Shown here in pieces: positions 28,997 through 38,425 of a stretch of 64,000 nt of DNA. The first letter of the stretch is position 1. Each line of letters begins with the position of its first letter. Both the position numbers and the translations under genes were made by a program. The notes beneath the pieces were generated by a model. That model saw nothing but the letters and a program-made list of their open reading frames with translations. It was not told where the DNA came from and did no database searches. The DNA comes from Streptomyces xiamenensis (lineage in GTDB: Bacteria; Actinomycetota; Actinomycetes; Streptomycetales; Streptomycetaceae): positions 558,001 to 622,000 of the forward strand of contig NZ_CP009922.3 of assembly GCF_000993785.3 (NCBI RefSeq), read 5' to 3'.

Positions 28997-29998
28997 TCAG
29001 CTGTCGGCGCCGGTCGGGTACAGGTCGCGGAGATAGGCGCCGAAGCCCTCGGCCCCGTCGATGATCCGGGGGCCGCTGATGGCCTCGTTGTAGTCGAGGA
29101 TGTAGAAGTTGCCGGCCAGCACGGCCGGGAGGTTGCGGGTCACGGGGGAGGAGCGCAGGAAGTCGATCTTCTCCTCGGCCGGGCGGTCCTGGTAGTCGAG
29201 GATGACGATGACCTCGGGGTCGGCGTCGACGACAGCCTCCCAGCCCACTGTGGTCCACCGGTCGGTCAGATCGGCGAAGACGTTCTCGCCGCCGGCCGTC
29301 TCGATGATCTCGTGGGGCGGGGCCTGGTTGCCGGAGGTGAACGGCTGGTCGGTGCCGGAGTCGTAGACGAAGACGCGGGGCGCGCGGCCGGCCGGGGCTG
29401 CCTCCTCGACGGCCGCGACGCGTTCACGCATCCCGGCGACGACCTCCTCGGCGCGGTCTTCGGCGCCGAAGATCCGCCCCAGCAGTTCCAGGTCCCGGTA
29501 CAACCCTTCGATCGGGGTGAAGTCCACCGGGTATTCGGGGTAGTTGTAGCAGGTCTCGCTGTGCATGAAGCTCTGGATGCCCAGGGTGTCCAGGAGTTCG
29601 GGCGTGATGCCGCGCTCGTCGCTGAAGCCCGAGCGCCAGCCGGCGACGACGAAGTCCGCCCCGGCGTCCACCACCAGCTCCCGGTTGAGCAGGTCGTCGC
29701 TGAGCATCTCCACCTTCGCGTACTCGGACGCCCACGGGGACTCCTCCACGGGCGGGTTGGCGGGCGGCATGACGTAGCCGCGCACGTGGTCGGTCAGGCC
29801 CAGGACGAACATCTTGTCCGCGCTGCCGGCCTCGTAGACGACGGCGCGCTCAGGGAGCTGGTATGTCACGTCCTCGCCGCAGCGCGGGACGGTCACCGCC
29901 GTGGCGCCTGAGGCGCCGTCCGCCGCGACATCGGCGCCGCAGGCGGCCAGGGGCAGGGCGGCCGCGGCGAGGGCGGCGGCGCGCAGGCGTCGGGTCAT
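28997..29998 (-). CDS. Siderophore/metal ABC transporter substrate-binding lipoprotein
   Basis: A 333-aa secreted lipoprotein. The signal peptide ends in the lipobox LAAC with Cys20 the lipidation site. The FecB/PeriplaBP_2-type two-lobe fold is seen in RAVVYEAGSADKMFVLGL, LVVDAGADFVVAG, PRVFVYDSGTDQPFTSG and DPEVIVILDYQDRP. It captures the metallophore complex outside the cell and delivers it to the permease. ATG 29998 overlaps the ATPase stop (ATGA). It is third in the importer operon. Confidence 0.9.
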   Translation of the reverse strand: MTRRLRAAALAAAALPLAACGADVAADGASGATAVTVPRCGEDVTYQLPERAVVYEAGSADKMFVLGLTDHVRGYVMPPANPPVEESPWASEYAKVEMLSDDLLNRELVVDAGADFVVAGWRSGFSDERGITPELLDTLGIQSFMHSETCYNYPEYPVDFTPIEGLYRDLELLGRIFGAEDRAEEVVAGMRERVAAVEEAAPAGRAPRVFVYDSGTDQPFTSGNQAPPHEIIETAGGENVFADLTDRWTTVGWEAVVDADPEVIVILDYQDRPAEEKIDFLRSSPVTRNLPAVLAGNFYILDYNEAISGPRIIDGAEGFGAYLRDLYPTGADS

Positions 29999-30768
29999 GC
30001 GGGGGCTCCCAGGGAGTAGAGGAGTTGCGGGTGGCCGGTCAGGGGGTGGGGGACGACGGTGGCCTCGACGCCGAAGACGGTGCGCACCAGTGCGGGGGTG
30101 AGTACCTCGCCCGGTGTGCCGGCCGCGACCAGGGCGCCGTCGGCCAGCACGCCGACGCGGTCGCACACGGCGGCGGCGAGGTTCAGGTCGTGGAGCACGA
30201 TCACGACTGTGAGGCCCGAGCGGCGCAGCAGCGTGAGCAGGTCGATCTGGTGCCGGATGTCGAGGTGGTTGGTGGGTTCGTCGAGCACCAGGACGTCGGG
30301 TTCCTGGACCAGGGCGCGTGCGGCGAGCACGCGTTGGCGTTCGCCGCCGGAGAGGGTGAGGACGCCCCGGTCGGCGAGGTGGAGGACGTCGAGCTGTGCC
30401 ATGGCGCGGTGGCACAGTTCGGTCTCGCGGGGGCCCAGTGCCTGGTTGCCGCGCAGGTGGGGTGAGCGGCCGAGGGCGACGATCTCCGCAACGGTGAAGT
30501 CGAGTTCGGATCCGCTCTCCTGGGTGAGCGCGGCGATGTGCCGGGCGCTGTCACGGCGGGTGTAGGTGGTCAGCTCGCGGTCGTGGAGCCATACGGTGCC
30601 GGTGGTGGGGGCGAGCGCCCGGTAGACGCAGCGCAGGGCGGTGGACTTGCCGCTGCCGTTGGGTCCGACGAGGCCCACGATCTGGCCGCTCCCCACATCC
30701 AGGGACAGGTCGCGGACCAGGGCGCGGCCGTCCCTGACGACCCCCAGCGCGTCGAGTCGCAGCGTCAT
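29995..30768 (-). CDS. Siderophore-type ABC transporter ATP-binding protein
   Basis: A 257-aa FecE-type ATPase. Walker A is GPNGSGKS (35-42), the Q-loop is in ALTQESGSE, signature LSGGERQRV, Walker B VLVLDEPTNHLD, switch His in VIVLHDLN. It powers import with the single permease upstream. Its ATG overlaps the permease stop by one base. Confidence 0.95.
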   Translation of the reverse strand: MTLRLDALGVVRDGRALVRDLSLDVGSGQIVGLVGPNGSGKSTALRCVYRALAPTTGTVWLHDRELTTYTRRDSARHIAALTQESGSELDFTVAEIVALGRSPHLRGNQALGPRETELCHRAMAQLDVLHLADRGVLTLSGGERQRVLAARALVQEPDVLVLDEPTNHLDIRHQIDLLTLLRRSGLTVVIVLHDLNLAAAVCDRVGVLADGALVAAGTPGEVLTPALVRTVFGVEATVVPHPLTGHPQLLYSLGAPA

Positions 30769-31871
30769 CAGCGGCCCCCGAAGACGTAGCCCTTGCGGCG
30801 CATCAGGGTGATGAACACCGGGACGCCGACCAGGGCCGTGATGACGCCGAGGGGAAGTTCGCGCGGAGCGGCGAGGGTGCGGGCGACGAGGTCGGCCCAG
30901 ACCATGAAGACGGCGCCGACGAGCGGTGCGAGGACGAGCACCCGGGCGTGGCGGGCGCCGACGAGGATGCGGACCAGGTGCGGCATGACGAGGCCGACGA
31001 AGCCGATCGCCCCGCTGACCGCGACCATCGCGCCGGTCATCAGGGAGGTGATGACGAACAGGCCGCGCCGCAGGGCGGTGGCGTCCACGCCGAGGCTGCC
31101 GGCCGTCTCGTCGCCCAGTGCCATGGCGTCCAGGGCCCGGGAGTGGCGGTGCAGGACGAAGGCCCCGGCGAGGACGATCACCGCGACGGTGGGCAGCGAG
31201 CCCCAGGTGGCGGCGCCGAGCCCGCCCAGCGTCCAGAACAGGACGGTGTGGGTGGCCTCGCCGTCGGGGGCGAGGTAGACCATGACGCTCATGACGGCCT
31301 GGAAGCCGTAGGCGAGGGCGATCCCCGTCAGGACCAGGCGCAGCGGGGTGAGTCCGGTGCGGCTGTAGGAGGCCAGGTAGACGAGGGCGGAGGCGGCCAG
31401 CGCACCCGCGAAGGCGCCGGCCGACAGGGCGTGGACGCCGAAGGCGCCGAAACCGCCGAGGACGATGACGGCGACCGCGCCGACCGAGGCGCCGGAGGAG
31501 ACGCCCAGGACGAACGGGTCGGCCAGCGCGTTGCGTACCAGGGCCTGTACGGCGACGCCGACCACGCTGAGGCCGGCGCCGACGACGACGGCCAGCAGCA
31601 CGCGGGGGGTGCGGACCTCCCAGATGATCTGGTAGCCGGTCAGGTTCTCGGCGGGGATGGTGCCGCCGGTGAGCGCGGCCCACAGGTAACGGGTCGTGTC
31701 CGCGGGTGAGATGGCGGCCGGACCGAGACCGATGGCCACGACCACGGAGACGATCAGCACGGCGAGCAGGGCGAGGACGGGGAGGGCGAGGCCCCGGCCG
31801 GTGGGCCCGGGGTCCGGGCGGACGGTGAGGTCCCCCGAGGGCTCACGCAATCTGTCGATAATGGAAATCAT
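30768..31871 (-). CDS. FecCD-type metal-chelate ABC permease
   Basis: A 367-aa inner-membrane permease with about ten helices. Family motifs include VRTPRVLLAVVVGAGLSVVGVAVQALVRNALADPFVLGVSSGA and the C-terminal GFVGLVMPHLVR (coupling helix) and ELPLGVITALVGVPVFITLMRR. Only one permease gene is present, so it should act as a homodimer. No Shine-Dalgarno precedes ATG 31871, and TACGAC lies 6-7 nt upstream on the minus strand, so the message looks leaderless. A Zur-like box overlaps the start codon. Confidence 0.94.
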   Translation of the reverse strand: MISIIDRLREPSGDLTVRPDPGPTGRGLALPVLALLAVLIVSVVVAIGLGPAAISPADTTRYLWAALTGGTIPAENLTGYQIIWEVRTPRVLLAVVVGAGLSVVGVAVQALVRNALADPFVLGVSSGASVGAVAVIVLGGFGAFGVHALSAGAFAGALAASALVYLASYSRTGLTPLRLVLTGIALAYGFQAVMSVMVYLAPDGEATHTVLFWTLGGLGAATWGSLPTVAVIVLAGAFVLHRHSRALDAMALGDETAGSLGVDATALRRGLFVITSLMTGAMVAVSGAIGFVGLVMPHLVRILVGARHARVLVLAPLVGAVFMVWADLVARTLAAPRELPLGVITALVGVPVFITLMRRKGYVFGGR

Positions 31872-31876
31872 TGTCG
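31862..31876. promoter_or_regulatory. Zur/Fur-like box over the importer start
   Basis: TGGAAATCATTGTCG matches the Streptomyces Zur consensus TGAAAATGATTTTCA in most positions, allowing for its palindromic symmetry. It covers the presumed transcription and translation start of the importer operon. It is not a DmdR1/DtxR iron box (TTAGGTTAGGCTCACCTAA). Confidence 0.55.
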
Positions 31877-31974
31877 TATCAGTGTTGTGCGCTGTGCCCG
31901 TTTCGTCAAACGGTCGCCGCCGAGGGGGCCTTCAGGGCAGCCGCGGAGCGGGGGCCCGCGCGGTGCACACCCCC

Positions 31975-33249
31975 TTAGGCAACCGCCTCCGGAGTGGACC
32001 GTGCCCCGCCCCGCGAGAAGTGGCGCGCGGTGGGCACCAGCGCCGCGCCCGCCGGGACGAGGAAGCACACCAGGGTGCACAGGCCCAGCACCGGGCCGGG
32101 CCCGAAGGCGTCGACGGCGGGGGCGATCAGGGCCAGGCCCACGGGGGCCAGGCCGTAGGAGACCATGAAGTCGAGCGAGGAGACCCTGGCCAGCCGTCGC
32201 GGTTCCACCTCGCGCTGGATGGCGGTGAACCAGGGGACGTTGAACAGTTCGATGCCGACGCCCGCCACCGCGTAGGCGACCACCACCAGGGCCACCGGCC
32301 CCGGCAGCCACAGGCTCAGCGGGGCGAACCCGTAGCAGGCCAGGGCCGCCAGCGCGGCCCAGCCCTGGAAGCGGGGGCGCCAGCGGGAGATGAGCAGCGC
32401 GCCGAACAGGGCTCCCGCCGTGTAGGCGGTGACGGCGGTGGCCAGGACGGCCTCGGTGCCGTAGCGGTCCCGGCTGACCATCGGCAGAACGACTCCGGTG
32501 GCCGAGTATCCGGTGGCGATGACGGCGGCGAGCGCCACGAGACCGCCCAGGAACCAGGGGTGGCGGCGCGCTTCCCGCACGCCGTCGGCGAACTCGGCGG
32601 TGAATCCGGGCCGCTCGGCCCCGTCCGGGGCGGGGGCGGGGGCGGGCTTCCCCCGGGGCGGCAGGAGGGCGGCGGCCAGCCACAGCACGCCGCTGCCCAG
32701 CAGCAGCGTGGGTACATCCAGCACGGTGGCGAGCAGTGCGGCCAGCGCGGGCCCCGCCAGCGTGGTGACGCGGACGGCCAGGGTCATCGCGGCGTTGGCC
32801 TGCTGGCGCCGCCCTGGCCGCACGACTTCGGCGGTCAGGGCCTGGAAGGCCGGCCGGCAGGCGCCCTGCCCGGCACCGATCACCGCGCCGGCCACCGCCA
32901 TCAGGGCGACCGAACGCCCCAGGGACATCGCCAGTACGGGGGTGGCGACGGCGGCGGCGAGCGAGGACCACAGCACGACGGAGCGGCGCGACCAGCGGTC
33001 GGCGAGGACACCGCCGACGGGCACCGCGATCAGGAAGCCGACGGTGCGTACGGCCAGTACGAGGCCGAGCGCGGTGGGCGTGATGGCGCTGTGCAGCACC
33101 GCGAGCCCGAGGATGAAGGGCATCGCCCAGGTGGCCAGGCCGGAGGCGGTCGAGCCCGCCCACAGCCGCAGGAAGGAGACCTCGCGCAGTACGGACCGCG
33201 GGCGGTCGGCGGTGACGGGTTCCAGGGTTGACGCGGGGGGACCGGCCAC
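31975..33249 (-). CDS. MFS transporter (putative metallophore exporter)
   Basis: A 424-aa, 12-helix major facilitator protein of the EntS-like group. Motif A is GGVLADRWSRRSVVLW near residue 70. A central loop (PPRGKPAPAPAPDGAERPGF) separates the halves. It resembles exporters found beside siderophore genes. I chose GTG 33249 because AAGGAGG lies 8 nt upstream; the longer frame has no homology. It sits between the importer operon and the biosynthetic operon, transcribed away from the latter. Confidence 0.85.
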   Translation of the reverse strand: MAGPPASTLEPVTADRPRSVLREVSFLRLWAGSTASGLATWAMPFILGLAVLHSAITPTALGLVLAVRTVGFLIAVPVGGVLADRWSRRSVVLWSSLAAAVATPVLAMSLGRSVALMAVAGAVIGAGQGACRPAFQALTAEVVRPGRRQQANAAMTLAVRVTTLAGPALAALLATVLDVPTLLLGSGVLWLAAALLPPRGKPAPAPAPDGAERPGFTAEFADGVREARRHPWFLGGLVALAAVIATGYSATGVVLPMVSRDRYGTEAVLATAVTAYTAGALFGALLISRWRPRFQGWAALAALACYGFAPLSLWLPGPVALVVVAYAVAGVGIELFNVPWFTAIQREVEPRRLARVSSLDFMVSYGLAPVGLALIAPAVDAFGPGPVLGLCTLVCFLVPAGAALVPTARHFSRGGARSTPEAVA

Positions 33250-33420
33250 GGTGGTGCCTCCTTGAGGGTCGGAGCGGCCTGATGTGCGGTCAGTCGTGCG
33301 GGGCGGAGGGTGCACGGCCCCACCGTGCGTCCGCGACCACCGGTCGGCGGGCAGCGACACAGGCGCCCGCCGGGGGCCTACTCCCGTGCCACGGGGGGCG
33401 GTTGGGGCCAAGGGCAACTC

Positions 33421-33449
33421 TAGACAGAAATGAAAATCGTTTGTAATAC
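33421..33449 (+). promoter_or_regulatory. Promoter of the biosynthetic operon with Zur/Fur-like box
   Basis: TAGACA (33421-33426) and TAATAC (33444-33449) are -35 and -10 boxes with a 17-bp gap. The gap contains TGAAAATCGTTTGTA (33431-33445), a Zur-like site matching TGAAAATGATTTTCA at about 12 of 15 positions when its symmetric form is allowed. A bound repressor would block RNA polymerase. Bases 33250-33420 hold only the exporter promoter. Confidence 0.65.
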
Positions 33450-33496
33450 TCGCACGGTCATCGGAGTGCGACCACTCCGCTACCAAGGGAGACCTC

Positions 33497-34252
33497 GTGG
33501 ATCACCCGGCGCCAGGACCGGCGTTCGCCGATCAGCTTCCCCCGCCCCTGCCGGCGGACCGGATCATCGCCCTCAACCAGCCCAGGGCCGACCTCCACAC
33601 CACCCGTCAGCACACCTGGAACGGCTGGACGTTCGACCTGCCGCCCGGCGTCTTCCAGCCGGGGGAAACCAGCCGCATGATCCACGAGCGGATCCTGGAC
33701 GGCCGTATCGAGGTGGCCGGCCGCCGCTACGCCGCCATGGGCGTGGGCCTCGGCGTCGAGGCCGTGGCGGCCGGGCAGCGCGGCGCCCGCGAGATCTACG
33801 CGCTCGACATCCACCCGGAGTCGGTCGCCACCACACGGCGGCACTACGAGCGGATCGTCGGGGACCGTCCGGGGACCACCTTCCACCCGCTCGTCTCCGA
33901 CCTGTTCGACGCGCTGCCGCCCGGGACCCGACTGGATGTCATCACCTTCAACCCGCCCGCCGTCAGCAGACGGGTGAGCGAGGACCCCGACGTGGTGCGC
34001 AACGTGTGCGTCGGCGCCCCGCTGCTGGCCGCCTTCTTCAGCCGGCTCGCCGAGGGCGACCTGCTCGCGGCCGGCGGCGAGGTCCATCTCATCGCCTCCA
34101 ACACCGCCGACCTGCGCGCCATCATCGGGCAGGCCCAGTCCCTCGGCTTCCACCCGGAGGTGACTCTGCGCCACGACTGGCGGGACGGGGTACTGACCTA
34201 TCTCTTCCGGCTCACCCTCCCGGCTGCCGACCGCCAGGAGCCCGCCGCATGA
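33497..34252 (+). CDS. SAM-dependent methyltransferase with NPPA motif (N-methyltransferase-like)
   Basis: A 251-aa Rossmann-type methyltransferase. SAM motif I is MGVGLGVEAVAAGQ (81-94), the acidic loop YALDIHPES (101-109), and the motif IV box FNPPAV (151-156) is the form used by methyltransferases that modify planar or amide nitrogen, as in PrmC/HemK. The residues before motif I (WTFDLPPGVFQPG) are also PrmC-like. It starts at GTG 33497 with AAGGGAG upstream and overlaps the next gene (ATGA). As first gene of the operon it may N-methylate the metal-binding product. Confidence 0.82.
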   Translation: MDHPAPGPAFADQLPPPLPADRIIALNQPRADLHTTRQHTWNGWTFDLPPGVFQPGETSRMIHERILDGRIEVAGRRYAAMGVGLGVEAVAAGQRGAREIYALDIHPESVATTRRHYERIVGDRPGTTFHPLVSDLFDALPPGTRLDVITFNPPAVSRRVSEDPDVVRNVCVGAPLLAAFFSRLAEGDLLAAGGEVHLIASNTADLRAIIGQAQSLGFHPEVTLRHDWRDGVLTYLFRLTLPAADRQEPAA

Positions 34253-35088
34253 CCCGGCCCACCGCCCGGCCCACCGCGCCGCCCGCCACTGTCGAGGAAC
34301 TGCGCCGCGCCGTGCTGGCGGACGCGACCGGCGCCGGCCCGGCCGCCCCCACCGCGACCGCTGTCTTCTGGCTGCACCACGGCACCCGGCTGTCCGGCGG
34401 GGACACCACCTACCTCAACCAGTATCTGCTCGTCCGCAGCGGCGGGTCGTTCGGGGCCTGCGCCGTCGAGGACGGCGAGACCGACCCGGCGCTGTGCCGC
34501 CGGTACACCGGCGCCCCGCTCCGCGCCCTGCTCGGCGAGGACGTCCCGCGCCCGTTGCGGCTGGCGGCGCTCGACGCCCTCCTCGCCGAGGCGTCGCCGC
34601 ACCGTGAGGACCCGGCCGCCGAGCCGGTCGGCCTGCCCCGGGGAACGCCGGAGGAACGCGCCCGCGCCCGGGACACGGCCATCGCCGGACTGCTGGACAT
34701 CCCCGAGGGCGCCAAGGTCGCCCTGATCGGCGTCGTCAACCCGCTGGTGGCCGCCATCCGCGACCGGGGCGGGGTCTGCCTGCCCTGTGACTTCAACCTG
34801 CGCACCACCCAGTGGGAGGAGCCCGTCACCGATTCCATGGACGAGGTCCTGGGCTGCGCCGACGCGGTGGTCGCCACCGGGATGACCCTGGGCAACGGCT
34901 CCTTCGACACCATCCTCGGCCGCTGCCGGGAGCGCGGCATCCCGCTGGTGGTCTACGCGCAGAGCGGCAGCGCCGTCGCCCGCGCCTTCCTCGGCAACGG
35001 GGTGACCGCGCTGTCCGCGGAGCCCTTCCCCTTCTCCCAGTTCAGCGCCGAGCCCACGGTGCTGTACCGGTACCGGGCCACCGCGTGA
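34249..35088 (+). CDS. DUF364 (putative heavy-metal chelation) Rossmann-like protein
   Basis: A 279-aa protein. The C-terminal half carries DUF364: VALIGVVNPLVAAIRDRGG, ADAVVATGMTLGNGSFDTIL and IPLVVYAQSGSAVARAF. The N-terminal half (LHHGTRLSGGDTTYLNQYLLVRSGGSFGACAVEDGETD) is variable. DUF364 proteins are thought to bind metals or metallated cofactors, but no reaction is known. Its start overlaps the methyltransferase stop and its own stop overlaps the kinase start (GTGA), so all three are made together. Confidence 0.82.
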   Translation: MTRPTARPTAPPATVEELRRAVLADATGAGPAAPTATAVFWLHHGTRLSGGDTTYLNQYLLVRSGGSFGACAVEDGETDPALCRRYTGAPLRALLGEDVPRPLRLAALDALLAEASPHREDPAAEPVGLPRGTPEERARARDTAIAGLLDIPEGAKVALIGVVNPLVAAIRDRGGVCLPCDFNLRTTQWEEPVTDSMDEVLGCADAVVATGMTLGNGSFDTILGRCRERGIPLVVYAQSGSAVARAFLGNGVTALSAEPFPFSQFSAEPTVLYRYRATA

Positions 35089-36125
35089 TCCCCTCCACCG
35101 GCACCGGGGAGGCCCCCTGTCACCACGGCGAGATCCTGCAGGGCGCCTTCCGCGACCGGACCGGCCGGACCTCGCTGGGCCTGGTCACCCTCTCGCTGCC
35201 CACTACGGACTCGCTGGGCAGCCGCGCGGAGTTCACCCCGTGCCCCAAGGCCCCCGCCGGCCGGCTCACGGTCCACCCCCCGGACCGGGTCAAGGCGCTG
35301 CGCGCGGCGGCCTCGACCATCGCGGAGTGCGCCCGCCGGAGCGGACGGACGCCGTGCGGCGGCCGGCTGCTGCTGCGCGGCGCCGTCCCGGTGGGCCTGG
35401 GGATGGGCTCGTCCACCAGCGACATCATCGCCACCATCCGGGCGGTGGCCGCCGGCTACCACGTCGCGCTGACCGCACCCGAGGTGGCCCGGCTGGCGGT
35501 GGCCGCCGAGCACGCCTGCGACCCCCTCATGCTCGACGACGGGCGGGCCCCCGTCCTGTTCGCCCAGCGCGAGGGACGCGTCCTCGAAGTGCTCGGCACG
35601 GCGCTGCCGCCGGCCGTGGTCGTCGGCTGCGCCACCAGCGGCGGCGCACCGGTCGACACCCTGGCCCTGCCCACCGACGCCTACCGCGACGAGGACGTGA
35701 CCACGTACGAGAGTCTGCGCGGCCTGCTGCGTCGCGCCGTCACCACCGCCGACACCGCACTGCTCGGCCGGGTCTGCACCGCGAGCGCCCGCCTCCACCA
35801 GCGACTGCTCACCAAGGAGGAACTCCCGCTGCTGGAGGCCATCGCGGCCGAGACCGGCGCGGCGGGCGTACAGATCGCGCACAGCGGCAATGTCGCCGGA
35901 GTGCTCTTCGACCCCGCTCTCCCCCGCCTGCGACCACGGATACGCCGCTGCCTCCACCGGCTGGAGCGCACGGGCATCCCCACCACCCGGATCTTCACGA
36001 CGTCCGCGAGCACGCCGGACACAGAGAACGAGAAGGTGAGCACGCATGCACGACCACGTGTCCGACGCGATCGGCGCCCCCGACCTGATACGCCTCGAAC
36101 CCGGACTGATCTGCCTGCGCTTTGA
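35085..36125 (+). CDS. GHMP kinase, PduX (L-threonine kinase)-like
   Basis: A 346-aa small-molecule kinase. The opening APCHHGEILQG resembles the PduX N-terminal box, and the GHMP phosphate loop is PVGLGMGSSTSD (102-113). A final Gly-rich strand lies in GVQIAHSGNVAGVLF. PduX phosphorylates L-threonine; here an O-phospho-Ser, -Thr or homoserine could be the electrophile for the next enzyme. The start GTG 35085 overlaps the DUF364 stop. Its frame runs 80 nt into the next gene, longer than usual; the last 25 or so residues (Arg/Pro-rich) may not be functional. Confidence 0.85.
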   Translation: MIPSTGTGEAPCHHGEILQGAFRDRTGRTSLGLVTLSLPTTDSLGSRAEFTPCPKAPAGRLTVHPPDRVKALRAAASTIAECARRSGRTPCGGRLLLRGAVPVGLGMGSSTSDIIATIRAVAAGYHVALTAPEVARLAVAAEHACDPLMLDDGRAPVLFAQREGRVLEVLGTALPPAVVVGCATSGGAPVDTLALPTDAYRDEDVTTYESLRGLLRRAVTTADTALLGRVCTASARLHQRLLTKEELPLLEAIAAETGAAGVQIAHSGNVAGVLFDPALPRLRPRIRRCLHRLERTGIPTTRIFTTSASTPDTENEKVSTHARPRVRRDRRPRPDTPRTRTDLPAL

Positions 36126-37089
36126 GACCATGAAGGTCGTCTCCGCCCTCGCCGCCGTGCGGCAGCTGCTTGAGCGCGGCACCGTACGGCCGGGCGACAC
36201 CCTGCTGGACAGCTCCAGCGGCATCTACGCCTACGCGCTCGCCCTCGCCTGCCACCGCCACGGCCTGCGCTGTCACATCGTGGGCTCCACCACCATCGAC
36301 GAGGTGCTGCGCACCCAACTCGCCGTCCTCGGCGCCCGTCTGGAGCAGATGCCGCCAAGCGACGACCTCAAACTCGACCAGAGGCGGCGGGTGCGGCGCG
36401 TCCGCGAGATCCTCGCCGAACACCCCGCCTACCACTGGATGCGCCAGTACCACGACGACATCCACTACCTCGGATACCGGGCCGTCGCCGCGTCGGTGGC
36501 CGAGGAAACACCGGGGCAGGCGCTCACCCTGGTCGGCGGCGTCGGGTCCGGCGCCTCCACCGGGGCGCTGGCCCGGTACCTCCGCGAAGGCGGCACCGAC
36601 CTCTGCCTGGTCGGCGTGCAGCCGTTCGGCAGTGTCACCTTCGGCAGCGAGCGGGTGACCGACCCGGAGATCATCATCGCCGGGATCGGCTCCTCCATCC
36701 CGATGGGCAATGTCTCCCACACCAGCTACGACACCGTGCACTGGACCGCCTTCGACGCCGCCCTGGCCGGCAGCGTCGATCTGCTGCGCCGGCACGCGGT
36801 CTTCGCCGGCCTGTCCACCGGCGCCGCGTATCTGGCCGCCCGCTGGGAGCACCGCCACGACCCGGAACGCACCGTGGTCTTCATCGCCGCGGACACCGGC
36901 CACCGGTACGTCGACACGGTCTTCGGCCGGCACCGCGAGGCCGTCCCGCTTGAGCGCCTCGCCCCCCGGACGGTCACCACCCCCGCCGAACTCGCCCTCC
37001 CCTGGTGCCGGATGGAGTGGTCCGGCGAGCGGGGGTTCGGGGAGGATCGGCGGATGGCGGTGCCGGTCACCGGCGCGCCGCACGGCTGA
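36046..37089 (+). CDS. SbnA-like PLP-dependent amino-acid synthase (cysteine-synthase fold)
   Basis: A 347-aa fold-type II PLP enzyme. The Schiff-base lysine is Lys30 (RFETMKVV), the substrate loop DSSSGIYAYALALAC, the phosphate-binding loop GGVGSGASTG. Four stretches run parallel to staphylococcal SbnA: YHWMRQYHDD, GVQPFGSVTFG, IIAGIGSSIP and VFAGLSTGAAY, then AADTGHRYVDTVF. SbnA makes a diaminopropionate precursor from O-phosphoserine and glutamate. The enzyme likely performs a similar replacement on the phospho-amino acid made by the preceding kinase. It closes the four-gene operon. Confidence 0.85.
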   Translation: MHDHVSDAIGAPDLIRLEPGLICLRFETMKVVSALAAVRQLLERGTVRPGDTLLDSSSGIYAYALALACHRHGLRCHIVGSTTIDEVLRTQLAVLGARLEQMPPSDDLKLDQRRRVRRVREILAEHPAYHWMRQYHDDIHYLGYRAVAASVAEETPGQALTLVGGVGSGASTGALARYLREGGTDLCLVGVQPFGSVTFGSERVTDPEIIIAGIGSSIPMGNVSHTSYDTVHWTAFDAALAGSVDLLRRHAVFAGLSTGAAYLAARWEHRHDPERTVVFIAADTGHRYVDTVFGRHREAVPLERLAPRTVTTPAELALPWCRMEWSGERGFGEDRRMAVPVTGAPHG

Positions 37090-37120: not shown

Positions 37121-38425
37121 TCACCAGCGCGGTACGGAGGGAGCCTGCCAACCGGGGTCGGCGGCCCGCATCGCGGCGGCGTCGTCCCGGTCCCGGTAGT
37201 GGCCGTACGTACTCTCGTCCAGCCAGCGGCCGTGCAGTACGGCCAGCCGCTCGTGGTCGAGTTCGACGCCCAGGCCCGGGGTGTCGGAGACGGTGACGCG
37301 GCCGTCGCGGAAGCGCGTCCGGGTGGTGATCACGTCCTCGCGCTGCCAGGGGTAGTGGCTGTCGCAGGCGTAGTCGAGGTGGGGGACGGTGGCGGCGACC
37401 TGGGTCATCGCGGCGAGGCTGATGCCCAGGTGGGTGTTGGAGTGCATGGACAGGCCGACGCCGAAGGCGCGGCAGACGGCGGCCAGTTCCCTGGTGCGGT
37501 GGAGTCCGCCCCAGTAGTGGTGGTCGGAGAGCACGATCTGGACGGCGTCCCGGGTGAACGCGTCACGGATCTCCGGGACGGTGGTGACGCACATGTTGGT
37601 GGCGAGCGGGACGTCCGTGCCGGCGGAGACGCGGGCCATCGCGTCGGTGCCGGTGGCCGGGTCCTCCAGGTACTGCAGGACGCCGCGCAGCCGGCCGGCG
37701 ACGTACAGGGAGGTCTCCACGGACCAGGCGCCGTTGGGGTCCAGGCGCAGCGGCATGCCGGGGAACGCCTCGGCGAGGGCGAGCACGGCGGCGATCTCCC
37801 GGTCGGGTTCGAAGACCCCGCCCTTGAGCTTGAAGGAGGTGAAGCCGTGCTCGCGGGCGAAGCGGCGGGCCTGGGTGACGATGCCCGCGGGGTCGAGCGC
37901 GGCGCCCCAGTCGTCGGGTTCGCAGGGGACGCCGTCGGGGTGGCGGGCCCAGCGGTGGAAGAGGTAGGCGCTGTAGTCGACGCTGTCGCGGACCTTGCCG
38001 CCCAGCAGGGCGTGCACGGGGAGCCCGAGGGTGCGGCCGAGGGCGTCCAGGCAGGCCACTTCGAAGGCGGAGACGACGGAGAGCCGCAGCTTGTCGGCGG
38101 TCAGCACGCCACGCTGGCCGCCGACGTCCAGGGTGGCGGCGCCGGTGGCGGGCGGCGCGTCGCCGCAGACGCGTTCGGCGAGGGCGAAGAGGGCGTTGAG
38201 GTCGCTGACGCGGTGCCCCGGCAGGGCGTCGGCGAGCGGGCGGGCGAGCCGGAGGTAGGTGGTGTCCCCGTAGGTCTCGCCGAGGCCGGTGACCCCGTCC
38301 GCGGTCTCCACCTCGACGACCAGGCGGGGGGTGTACGGCTGGTGGACGCCCTGGGTGTTGAGCAGCGGGGGGTCGGACACGAGGATCGGGGTCAGCCGTA
38401 CGGCGGTGATGGTGAGCCTGCTCAT
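37121..38425 (-). CDS. Enolase-superfamily sugar-acid dehydratase (glucarate dehydratase type)
   Basis: A 434-aa mandelate-racemase-like enzyme. It shows the general-base pair region SFKLKGGVF (KxK, near residue 205), metal ligand Asp in LRLDPNGAWS, and catalytic His in LSMHSNTHLG. Length and N terminus (LTPILVSDPPLLNTQGVHQPYTPR) match glucarate dehydratases, which convert D-glucarate to 5-keto-4-deoxyglucarate. It stands alone, converging with the metal locus, and a co-resident transporter is not seen. Altronate- or galactarate-type activity cannot be excluded. Confidence 0.85.
   Translation of the reverse strand: MSRLTITAVRLTPILVSDPPLLNTQGVHQPYTPRLVVEVETADGVTGLGETYGDTTYLRLARPLADALPGHRVSDLNALFALAERVCGDAPPATGAATLDVGGQRGVLTADKLRLSVVSAFEVACLDALGRTLGLPVHALLGGKVRDSVDYSAYLFHRWARHPDGVPCEPDDWGAALDPAGIVTQARRFAREHGFTSFKLKGGVFEPDREIAAVLALAEAFPGMPLRLDPNGAWSVETSLYVAGRLRGVLQYLEDPATGTDAMARVSAGTDVPLATNMCVTTVPEIRDAFTRDAVQIVLSDHHYWGGLHRTRELAAVCRAFGVGLSMHSNTHLGISLAAMTQVAATVPHLDYACDSHYPWQREDVITTRTRFRDGRVTVSDTPGLGVELDHERLAVLHGRWLDESTYGHYRDRDDAAAMRAADPGWQAPSVPRW

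Follow-up and report, generated by a model that had tools for sequence, protein, structure and literature searches.

A conserved, Zur-boxed gene cluster of actinobacteria predicted to make and recover a small aminopolycarboxylate zincophore

The subject of this report is an eight-gene locus of Streptomyces xiamenensis (positions 28997..37089) within a stretch of 64,000 nt that we call the window (C1:558001-622000 of a 5.96-Mb single-contig genome). We consider it probable, with real room for doubt, that this conserved, Zur-boxed locus serves in zinc shortage for the synthesis, export and re-uptake of a small aminopolycarboxylate zincophore. The predicted pathway is likely of the aminopolycarboxylate-metallophore kind, independent of non-ribosomal peptide synthetases (NRPS) and of NRPS-independent siderophore (NIS) synthetases. 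What was observed directly is the set of genes, the fact that it is conserved as a unit, the presence of Zur-like sites and the lack of an SbnB match in the genome. An earlier interpretation of this DNA, made from its letters and open reading frames (hereafter the sequence-only reading), had proposed a metallophore locus devoid of NRPS and NIS genes, and our results support that proposal. We did not find this gene set described in the literature searched, which did not cover most subscription journals or bioRxiv.

Organization of the locus

The genes form two divergent units. Leftward, on the reverse strand, run an MFS exporter (31975..33249; PF07690, E 3e-35; start codon picked by eye) and the three components of an importer that we call type 1: a FecC/D-type permease (30768..31871; PF01032, 295 bits, E 6.1e-88), a FecE-type ABC ATPase (29995..30768; PF00005, E 2.6e-32) and a FecB-type substrate-binding lipoprotein (28997..29998; PF01497, 81.6 bits, E 7.7e-23). 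Rightward, on the forward strand, lie an accessory HemK/PrmC-like methyltransferase (33497..34252; PF05175, 20.8 bits), a two-domain DUF364 protein (34249..35088; PF04016, 39.9 bits with a cut-off of 23, E 4e-10), a GHMP-family small-molecule kinase (35085..36125; PF00288, E 6.6e-11) and an SbnA-like fold-type-II enzyme dependent on pyridoxal phosphate (PLP; 36046..37089; PF00291, E 4e-31). All of these matches pass their Pfam cut-offs except that of the methyltransferase, which falls just short of 23 bits. Two Zur-like 21-bp sites accompany the genes, one in the divergent promoter (33428..33448, matching 12 of 15 positions) and the other across the annotated fecC start (31859..31879, 11 of 15).

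The overlapping-gene operon of the sequence-only reading is real, the reading frames of the rightward unit overlapping by 4, 4 and 80 nt. The 80 nt shared by the kinase and PLP genes (36046-36125) recur among relatives: by our own gene calls the overlap was 80 nt in nine and 43 nt in three of the 12 first relatives, and of a larger set of 66 stretches, 43 had 80 nt, 15 had 43 nt and 8 had another length. Every gene that the sequence-only reading had named stands where it was placed, and the NPPA motif of the methyltransferase and the PLP-protein features Lys30, GVQPFGSVTFG and VFAGLSTG are all present. The FecB/FecC/FecE-type importer and the MFS transporter were likewise borne out, but the EntS label given to the latter is weaker than claimed, since EntS is a sub-threshold NCBIfam match (44 bits, cut-off 324) outscored by TIGR00900, which at 145 bits is below its own cut-off of 320.

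Conservation of the gene set

A search of 100 related genomes with the PLP-enzyme protein yielded several groups of relatives, and we mapped the window's genes onto 40 stretches of at most 20 kb around the best matches. The MFS exporter, DUF364, the kinase, the PLP enzyme and a Fec importer occurred together in 12 of the 40; the methyltransferase was present in one of these full sets (L033) and in one further locus (L046). With DUF364 as the query, the named species-level collection gave 258 relatives, the best 80 of which were taken as loci (L085-L164). They come from Streptomyces, Kitasatospora, Nocardiopsis, Amycolatopsis, Prauserella, Actinopolymorpha, Thermocrispum, Umezawaea and other genera. 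The DUF364 gene is also present in S. ambofaciens ATCC 23877, and the window's kinase and DUF364 proteins share 94% and 96% identity, respectively, with proteins under the name Streptomyces xiamenensis. DUF364 was found in all 80, the kinase in 77, the PLP enzyme in 77, the MFS exporter in 71 and the methyltransferase in 40, and a second type of MFS gene in four more loci brings either type to 75. DUF364, kinase and PLP genes were all present in 74 of the 80 and stood consecutively in this order in 70; a FecC-type permease of type 1, type 2 or both was also found in 70. The three loci that lack the PLP gene (L091, L112 and L151) are on contigs ending within the kinase gene, and in one kinase miss, L162, the gene order differs and the PLP gene lies at the contig end.

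Clustering of the predicted proteins of the 80 stretches and the window gave the same picture, with eight families recurring in at least 40 of the 81: DUF364 (81), PLP enzyme (77), FecE-like (73), FecC (71), FecB (71), MFS (71), kinase (70) and methyltransferase (40). There is no ninth, and the edges of the cluster are sharp, since the next-commonest family occurs in just 11 of the 81 stretches; an enolase-superfamily gene at 37121-38425, considered as a member, falls outside the unit by this clustering. The co-occurrence of the gene set is thus far from chance. The sequence-only reading had named co-occurrence of four families as its check, and three of them (DUF364, kinase and PLP enzyme) do travel together, while the methyltransferase does not do so consistently. 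The methyltransferase accompanied importer type 1 in 26 of 30 rows and type 2 in 6 of 38 (Fisher 4e-9), an association for which tree-independent pairs are too few and which is not demonstrably beyond shared ancestry.

These counts bear on the proposal that the kinase and PLP enzyme simply supply a free diamino acid, 2,3-diaminopropionate or diaminobutyrate, for use as a building block, with the transporters as mere neighbours. The friulimicin dab genes are a precedent for diamino-acid supply, and pairs of a kinase and an SbnA-like enzyme elsewhere adjoin very large genes of unassigned family. In the present locus, however, no further family rises above 11 of the 81 stretches, the transporters are conserved nearly as well as the enzymes, and the genome has no SbnB match, so we hold this explanation to be very unlikely.

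Probable zinc control

The Zur box of Streptomyces is tGaNNatSatNNtCa, and its wider actinobacterial form is taaTGaNAANNNTTNtCANta (PMC5472717). In 70 of the 80 loci we scored the sequence ahead of the MFS gene on the 15 specified positions of this wider form; in the other ten an MFS match was missing or the remaining stretch was too short. At least 11 of the 15 positions matched in 66 of the 70. The same score was reached by 2 of 1400 letter shuffles of these regions, by 1 of 1400 shuffles in three-letter blocks and by 6 of 1301 windows taken at random from the loci. The divergent promoter of the window carries TGAAAATCGTTTGTA at 33431, and the sites at 33428 and 31859 are the two top-scoring places of the 64 kb, both within the locus.

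Allowing at most three mismatches, the wider motif matched the whole genome nine times at six distinct places, and the reversed pattern matched three times. The site at 33428 is one of the six. A second lies between divergent genes that by eye read as ribosomal S14/L28 and L33/L31, a type of gene that is a typical Zur target, and another is ahead of a gene that, again by eye, resembles a metal ABC permease. The genome has 14 looser sites, two of them in the locus and two before a znuA-like gene; a Fur-family gene is found 1.7 kb beyond the end of this znuA-like gene. Taken from these motifs, zinc is the likely trigger of the locus. The sequence-only reading had mentioned zinc control for the chelator ethylenediaminedisuccinate (EDDS) of Amycolatopsis, and the sites, which it had not noticed, strengthen the case for such control here.

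We give only a slight chance to the idea that the locus serves iron or some other metal. Fec-type importers often carry ferric siderophores or cobalamin, and what we take to be the iron box did score somewhat above background in the promoters. At a score of at least 12 it occurred in 4 of 70 promoters against 12 of 1301 random windows of the same loci and 48 of 1400 shuffles of the same regions; at a score of at least 11 the figures were 13 of 70, 69 of 1301 and 273 of 1400. The excess over random windows, which we ascribe to the AT-richness of promoters, is thus small at the higher threshold and gone at the lower one when shuffles are the control, and we rejected the iron box as a promoter signal. 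DUF364 genes of other bacteria have iron, molybdate, tungstate and vanadium transporters among their neighbours (PMC2954201), a further point for another metal; Zur-type sites in 66 of 70 loci speak for zinc.

A probable EDDS-type operon of Amycolatopsis

Could the locus be a form of the known EDDS/EDHA (Aes) aminopolycarboxylate pathway? EDDS is a Zur-controlled zincophore made outside NRPS and NIS routes (PMC4993170), and an SbnA-like enzyme is present in both loci. EDHA, on the other hand, is reported to be made by a four-gene operon, AesA-D (PMC10702961). We searched 80 genomes of the genus of Amycolatopsis anabasis (G469, the genome of L130), 47 of which had a match to the SbnB gene. The short flanks of 31 SbnB loci contained one Zur site at 11 of 15 positions, and no site at 12 or more was found in 20 longer stretches. 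A search for near-perfect Zur cores in the 80 genomes returned 41 rows at 29 loci; the first three sites examined lie in regions of other gene make-up, and seven of the 29 loci adjoin an SbnB-like gene. The four that were read (L256-L259) have one Zur-boxed operon of SbnB-like, LysA-like decarboxylase, SbnA-like and MATE genes. In L256 these families are above threshold in Pfam, and the SbnB-, LysA- and SbnA-like NCBIfam matches are all below their cut-offs. Judged from its genes alone, this is probably an operon of the EDDS (aes) type, its content suiting EDDS chemistry as we presume it to run.

Of the four genes that characterize this operon, the window locus has just the SbnA-like one. The PLP enzyme of L256-L259 is 28-30% identical to that of the window, the operon is without kinase, DUF364, MFS and Fec genes, and the genome of the window has no SbnB match, all of which makes an Aes-type identity extremely improbable. 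A. japonica was not seen among the 120 matches listed of 1147 in a search for carriers of the locus.

One additional locus, L260, has an exporter 68% identical to the MFS protein of the window, together with LysA-like, SbnB-like (27%), HisC-like aminotransferase and SbnA-like genes behind Zur-like sites, and with two large proteins having ABC-ATPase matches. This hybrid is a hint that systems of this kind swap their exporter and biosynthesis genes.

The PLP enzyme, the kinase and DUF364

The closest profiles of the PLP enzyme are SbnA and cysteine synthase, both beta-replacement enzymes. K30, R115 and Y135 align with K47, R132 and Y152 of SbnA and are invariant in 37 aligned sequences; the PLP lysine and the equivalents of R132 and Y152 looked for in a beta-replacement enzyme are therefore present, the roles of the three residues in SbnA being those that we assume. 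A glycine occupies the place of S185 of SbnA.

The kinase has the conserved motifs HHGExLQG, GLGMGSS and HSGxxxG, and the combination of PF00288 and GLGxGSS places it in the GHMP family. Its structure model is of moderate quality (predicted local distance difference test, pLDDT, 73.7), and a Foldseek search with it retrieved GHMP-fold proteins, including mevalonate and homoserine kinases, at template-modelling (TM) scores of about 0.4-0.5, with mevalonate kinases ranking higher. The model thus gives a GHMP fold and does not discriminate the substrate. Threonine stays a candidate because the N-terminal motif resembles what we take to be that of PduX and because relatives are named in their source as "involved in propanediol utilization". 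The argument that a dedicated kinase excludes serine, by which threonine would be favoured, was discarded: SbnI is a dedicated serine kinase for SbnA, and two loci (L140 and L163) have no kinase. The SbnI precedent and the two kinase-less loci, which would be possible with phosphoserine from primary metabolism, lead us to favour serine over threonine. By this analogy the kinase likely supplies a phospho-amino acid, for which serine is favoured and threonine and homoserine remain candidates.

If homoserine were the substrate, the PLP enzyme could add an amine at the gamma carbon of O-phosphohomoserine, and the product would be an N-(3-amino-3-carboxypropyl) chelator resembling nicotianamine or staphylopine, made without S-adenosylmethionine. 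Homoserine kinase is the best NCBIfam match of the kinase, a weak one (23 bits, E 2.4e-5, cut-off 168), and is among the Foldseek matches; threonine synthase uses phosphohomoserine and has the same fold type as the PLP enzyme. We nevertheless consider this route unlikely, with mevalonate kinases above homoserine kinases in the fold search and beta-replacement enzymes as the nearest profiles of the PLP enzyme.

The DUF364 protein has the enolase-N-like and Rossmann-like domains of its family. Its model (pLDDT 89.5) retrieved in Foldseek, as the top six chains, 3l5o and 3npg, both DUF364, at TM scores of 0.53-0.60 on the query. The 2010 paper on the first of these structures assigned no function but made a case for an enzyme connected with metal chelators (PMC2954201).

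Other SbnA-like loci

The genome contains two more genes for SbnA-like PLP enzymes. The second, near 5672000 (L031:9024-12100), encodes a protein 61% identical to that of the window. Its neighbours are genes for a class-I methyltransferase and for a ligase of the ATP-grasp (LAL_C2) type, and an MFS gene and an extracytoplasmic-function (ECF) sigma gene lie nearby. Ten loci of this kind (L031 and L047-L055) have the methyltransferase in all ten, the ligase in eight, the sigma gene in seven and the MFS gene in six, with a Fec importer added in L051. In the promoters of this group no Zur-like site reached 12 of 15 positions, the one such site, in L055, being intragenic; an iron-box-like site (16 of 19) is present in L047. 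The third PLP gene (L032) is beside very large genes of unassigned family, and a second GHMP kinase gene (G000:C1:5733409-5734269) lies about 19 kb from it. Among the more distant loci of this third type (PLP2; L032, L058-L068 and L070), a GHMP kinase gene adjoins the PLP gene in 8 of 13, an ATP-grasp gene is found in 10 and an argininosuccinate-lyase-like gene in 5.

Discussion

The results fit a pathway in which Zn-Zur would repress both transcripts and in which zinc shortage would release them. The first step would be the phosphorylation of a free hydroxy-amino acid at its hydroxyl group by the GHMP kinase. In the second, the PLP enzyme would expel the phosphate and attach another amino acid, Asp- or Glu-like, through its amino group, in the manner of SbnA and aspergillomarasmine synthase. 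The conjugate, perhaps extended by a second round, could be the ligand itself, as there is no SbnB to cleave it. The conjugate, or the complex that it forms with metal, may be what DUF364 acts on, the methyltransferase would methylate the conjugate in about half of the loci, and the MFS protein would export the ligand, the zinc complex being re-imported by FecBCE. We infer that a hydroxy-amino acid is phosphorylated, that an amino-acid nitrogen takes the place of the phosphate and that the conjugate is exported because there are two fitting precedents: the substrate of SbnA is made by SbnI, a kinase of free serine (PMC9598555), and the SbnA-like fungal aspergillomarasmine (AMA) synthase condenses O-phosphoserine with Asp, no free diaminopropionate being formed (PMC12751119).

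Several observations weigh against this pathway. The SbnA model TIGR03945 is the best NCBIfam match of the PLP enzyme, but at 143.3 bits the match is far below the cut-off of 350, and the SbnA label of the sequence-only reading is weaker than claimed. The substrate loop is SSGI, as against TSGN in SbnA, and with the low SbnA score this change means that the donor may differ from that of SbnA. Nine related PLP genes (59-62% identical; L031, L047 and L049-L055) have no kinase or DUF364 match in their stretches. In two full stretches, L140 (Streptomonospora nanhaiensis) and L163 (Umezawaea endophytica), DUF364 is followed directly by the PLP gene, so that the kinase, part of the scheme in the sequence-only reading, can be dispensed with in 2 of 80 loci. 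No kinase of the locus family was found elsewhere in these two genomes, an empty search that alone shows little; the same alignment matched 20 of 394 genomes evenly sampled from the class, our own included (E up to 1e-40). A FecC-type gene is missing from ten of the 80 loci, including three full stretches (L127, L147 and L158). As for zinc, four of the 70 promoters (L101, L146, L152 and L157) are below 11 of 15, although in L146 and L157 the MFS gene is at the far end of the cluster and the region scored is therefore not the divergent promoter. The window's own boxes, at 12 and 11 of 15, are weaker than those of most relatives, and for this reason the case for Zur rests on conservation across loci.

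A bolder version of the proposal is possible yet doubtful. It would make the locus the representative of a new NRPS- and NIS-independent zincophore class widespread in actinobacteria, in which the GHMP kinase activates L-threonine and the PLP enzyme couples phospho-threonine with an acidic amino acid to give a 2,3-diaminobutyrate-based aminopolycarboxylate; DUF364, which would thereby become the first member of its family to which a role can be assigned, would finish the chelator or handle its zinc complex. If the pathway holds true, it would add a common route of zinc acquisition for actinobacteria, to judge from the 258 DUF364 relatives in the species-level collection, the best 80 of which were examined. 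It would also provide a pathway context in which to assay DUF364, and a bacterial counterpart of the fungal aspergillomarasmine-type chelators.

How does the predicted system compare with those already described? Like coelibactin, it would be a Zur-controlled Streptomyces zincophore, coelibactin itself being a predicted one (PMC6103462); coelibactin differs in being a putative non-ribosomal peptide (PMC3430247). With the EDDS/EDHA (Aes) systems the locus has in common its independence of NRPS and NIS enzymes, an SbnA-like enzyme and, for EDDS, Zur control. The presumed aes operon has SbnB-like, LysA-like decarboxylase and MATE genes where the locus has the kinase, DUF364, the MFS exporter and the Fec importer, and the two share only the Zur box and a PLP enzyme of the low identity given above.

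The Dab/Dap (diaminobutyrate/diaminopropionate) supply genes of NRPS clusters, of the friulimicin type, are a further system for comparison by virtue of their kinase and SbnA-like genes. The likeness is the kinase beside an SbnA-like gene, as in the 8 of 13 PLP2-type loci, and the difference is that our locus has no NRPS and that its importer and exporter are conserved together with the enzymes.

In the staphyloferrin B system, SbnI, SbnA and SbnB offer the closest model for a kinase feeding an SbnA-type PLP enzyme (PMC9598555), and the equivalents of K47, R132 and Y152 are kept in our enzyme. The locus differs in the SbnA score (143 bits against 350), in the changed substrate loop and in having neither SbnB nor an NIS synthetase. 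SbnI, unlike the kinase of the locus, is presumably not a member of the GHMP family. Finally, the aspergillomarasmine/toxin A synthase corresponds to our proposal in that phosphoserine is coupled with an amino acid by one cysteine-synthase-like PLP enzyme and the resulting conjugate serves as the chelator (PMC12751119). That system is fungal and has no DUF364, and no dedicated kinase is mentioned in the excerpted part of the paper; the chemistry that we predict for the actinobacterial locus, a phospho-amino acid joined to a second amino acid by one PLP enzyme, would be of the same kind.

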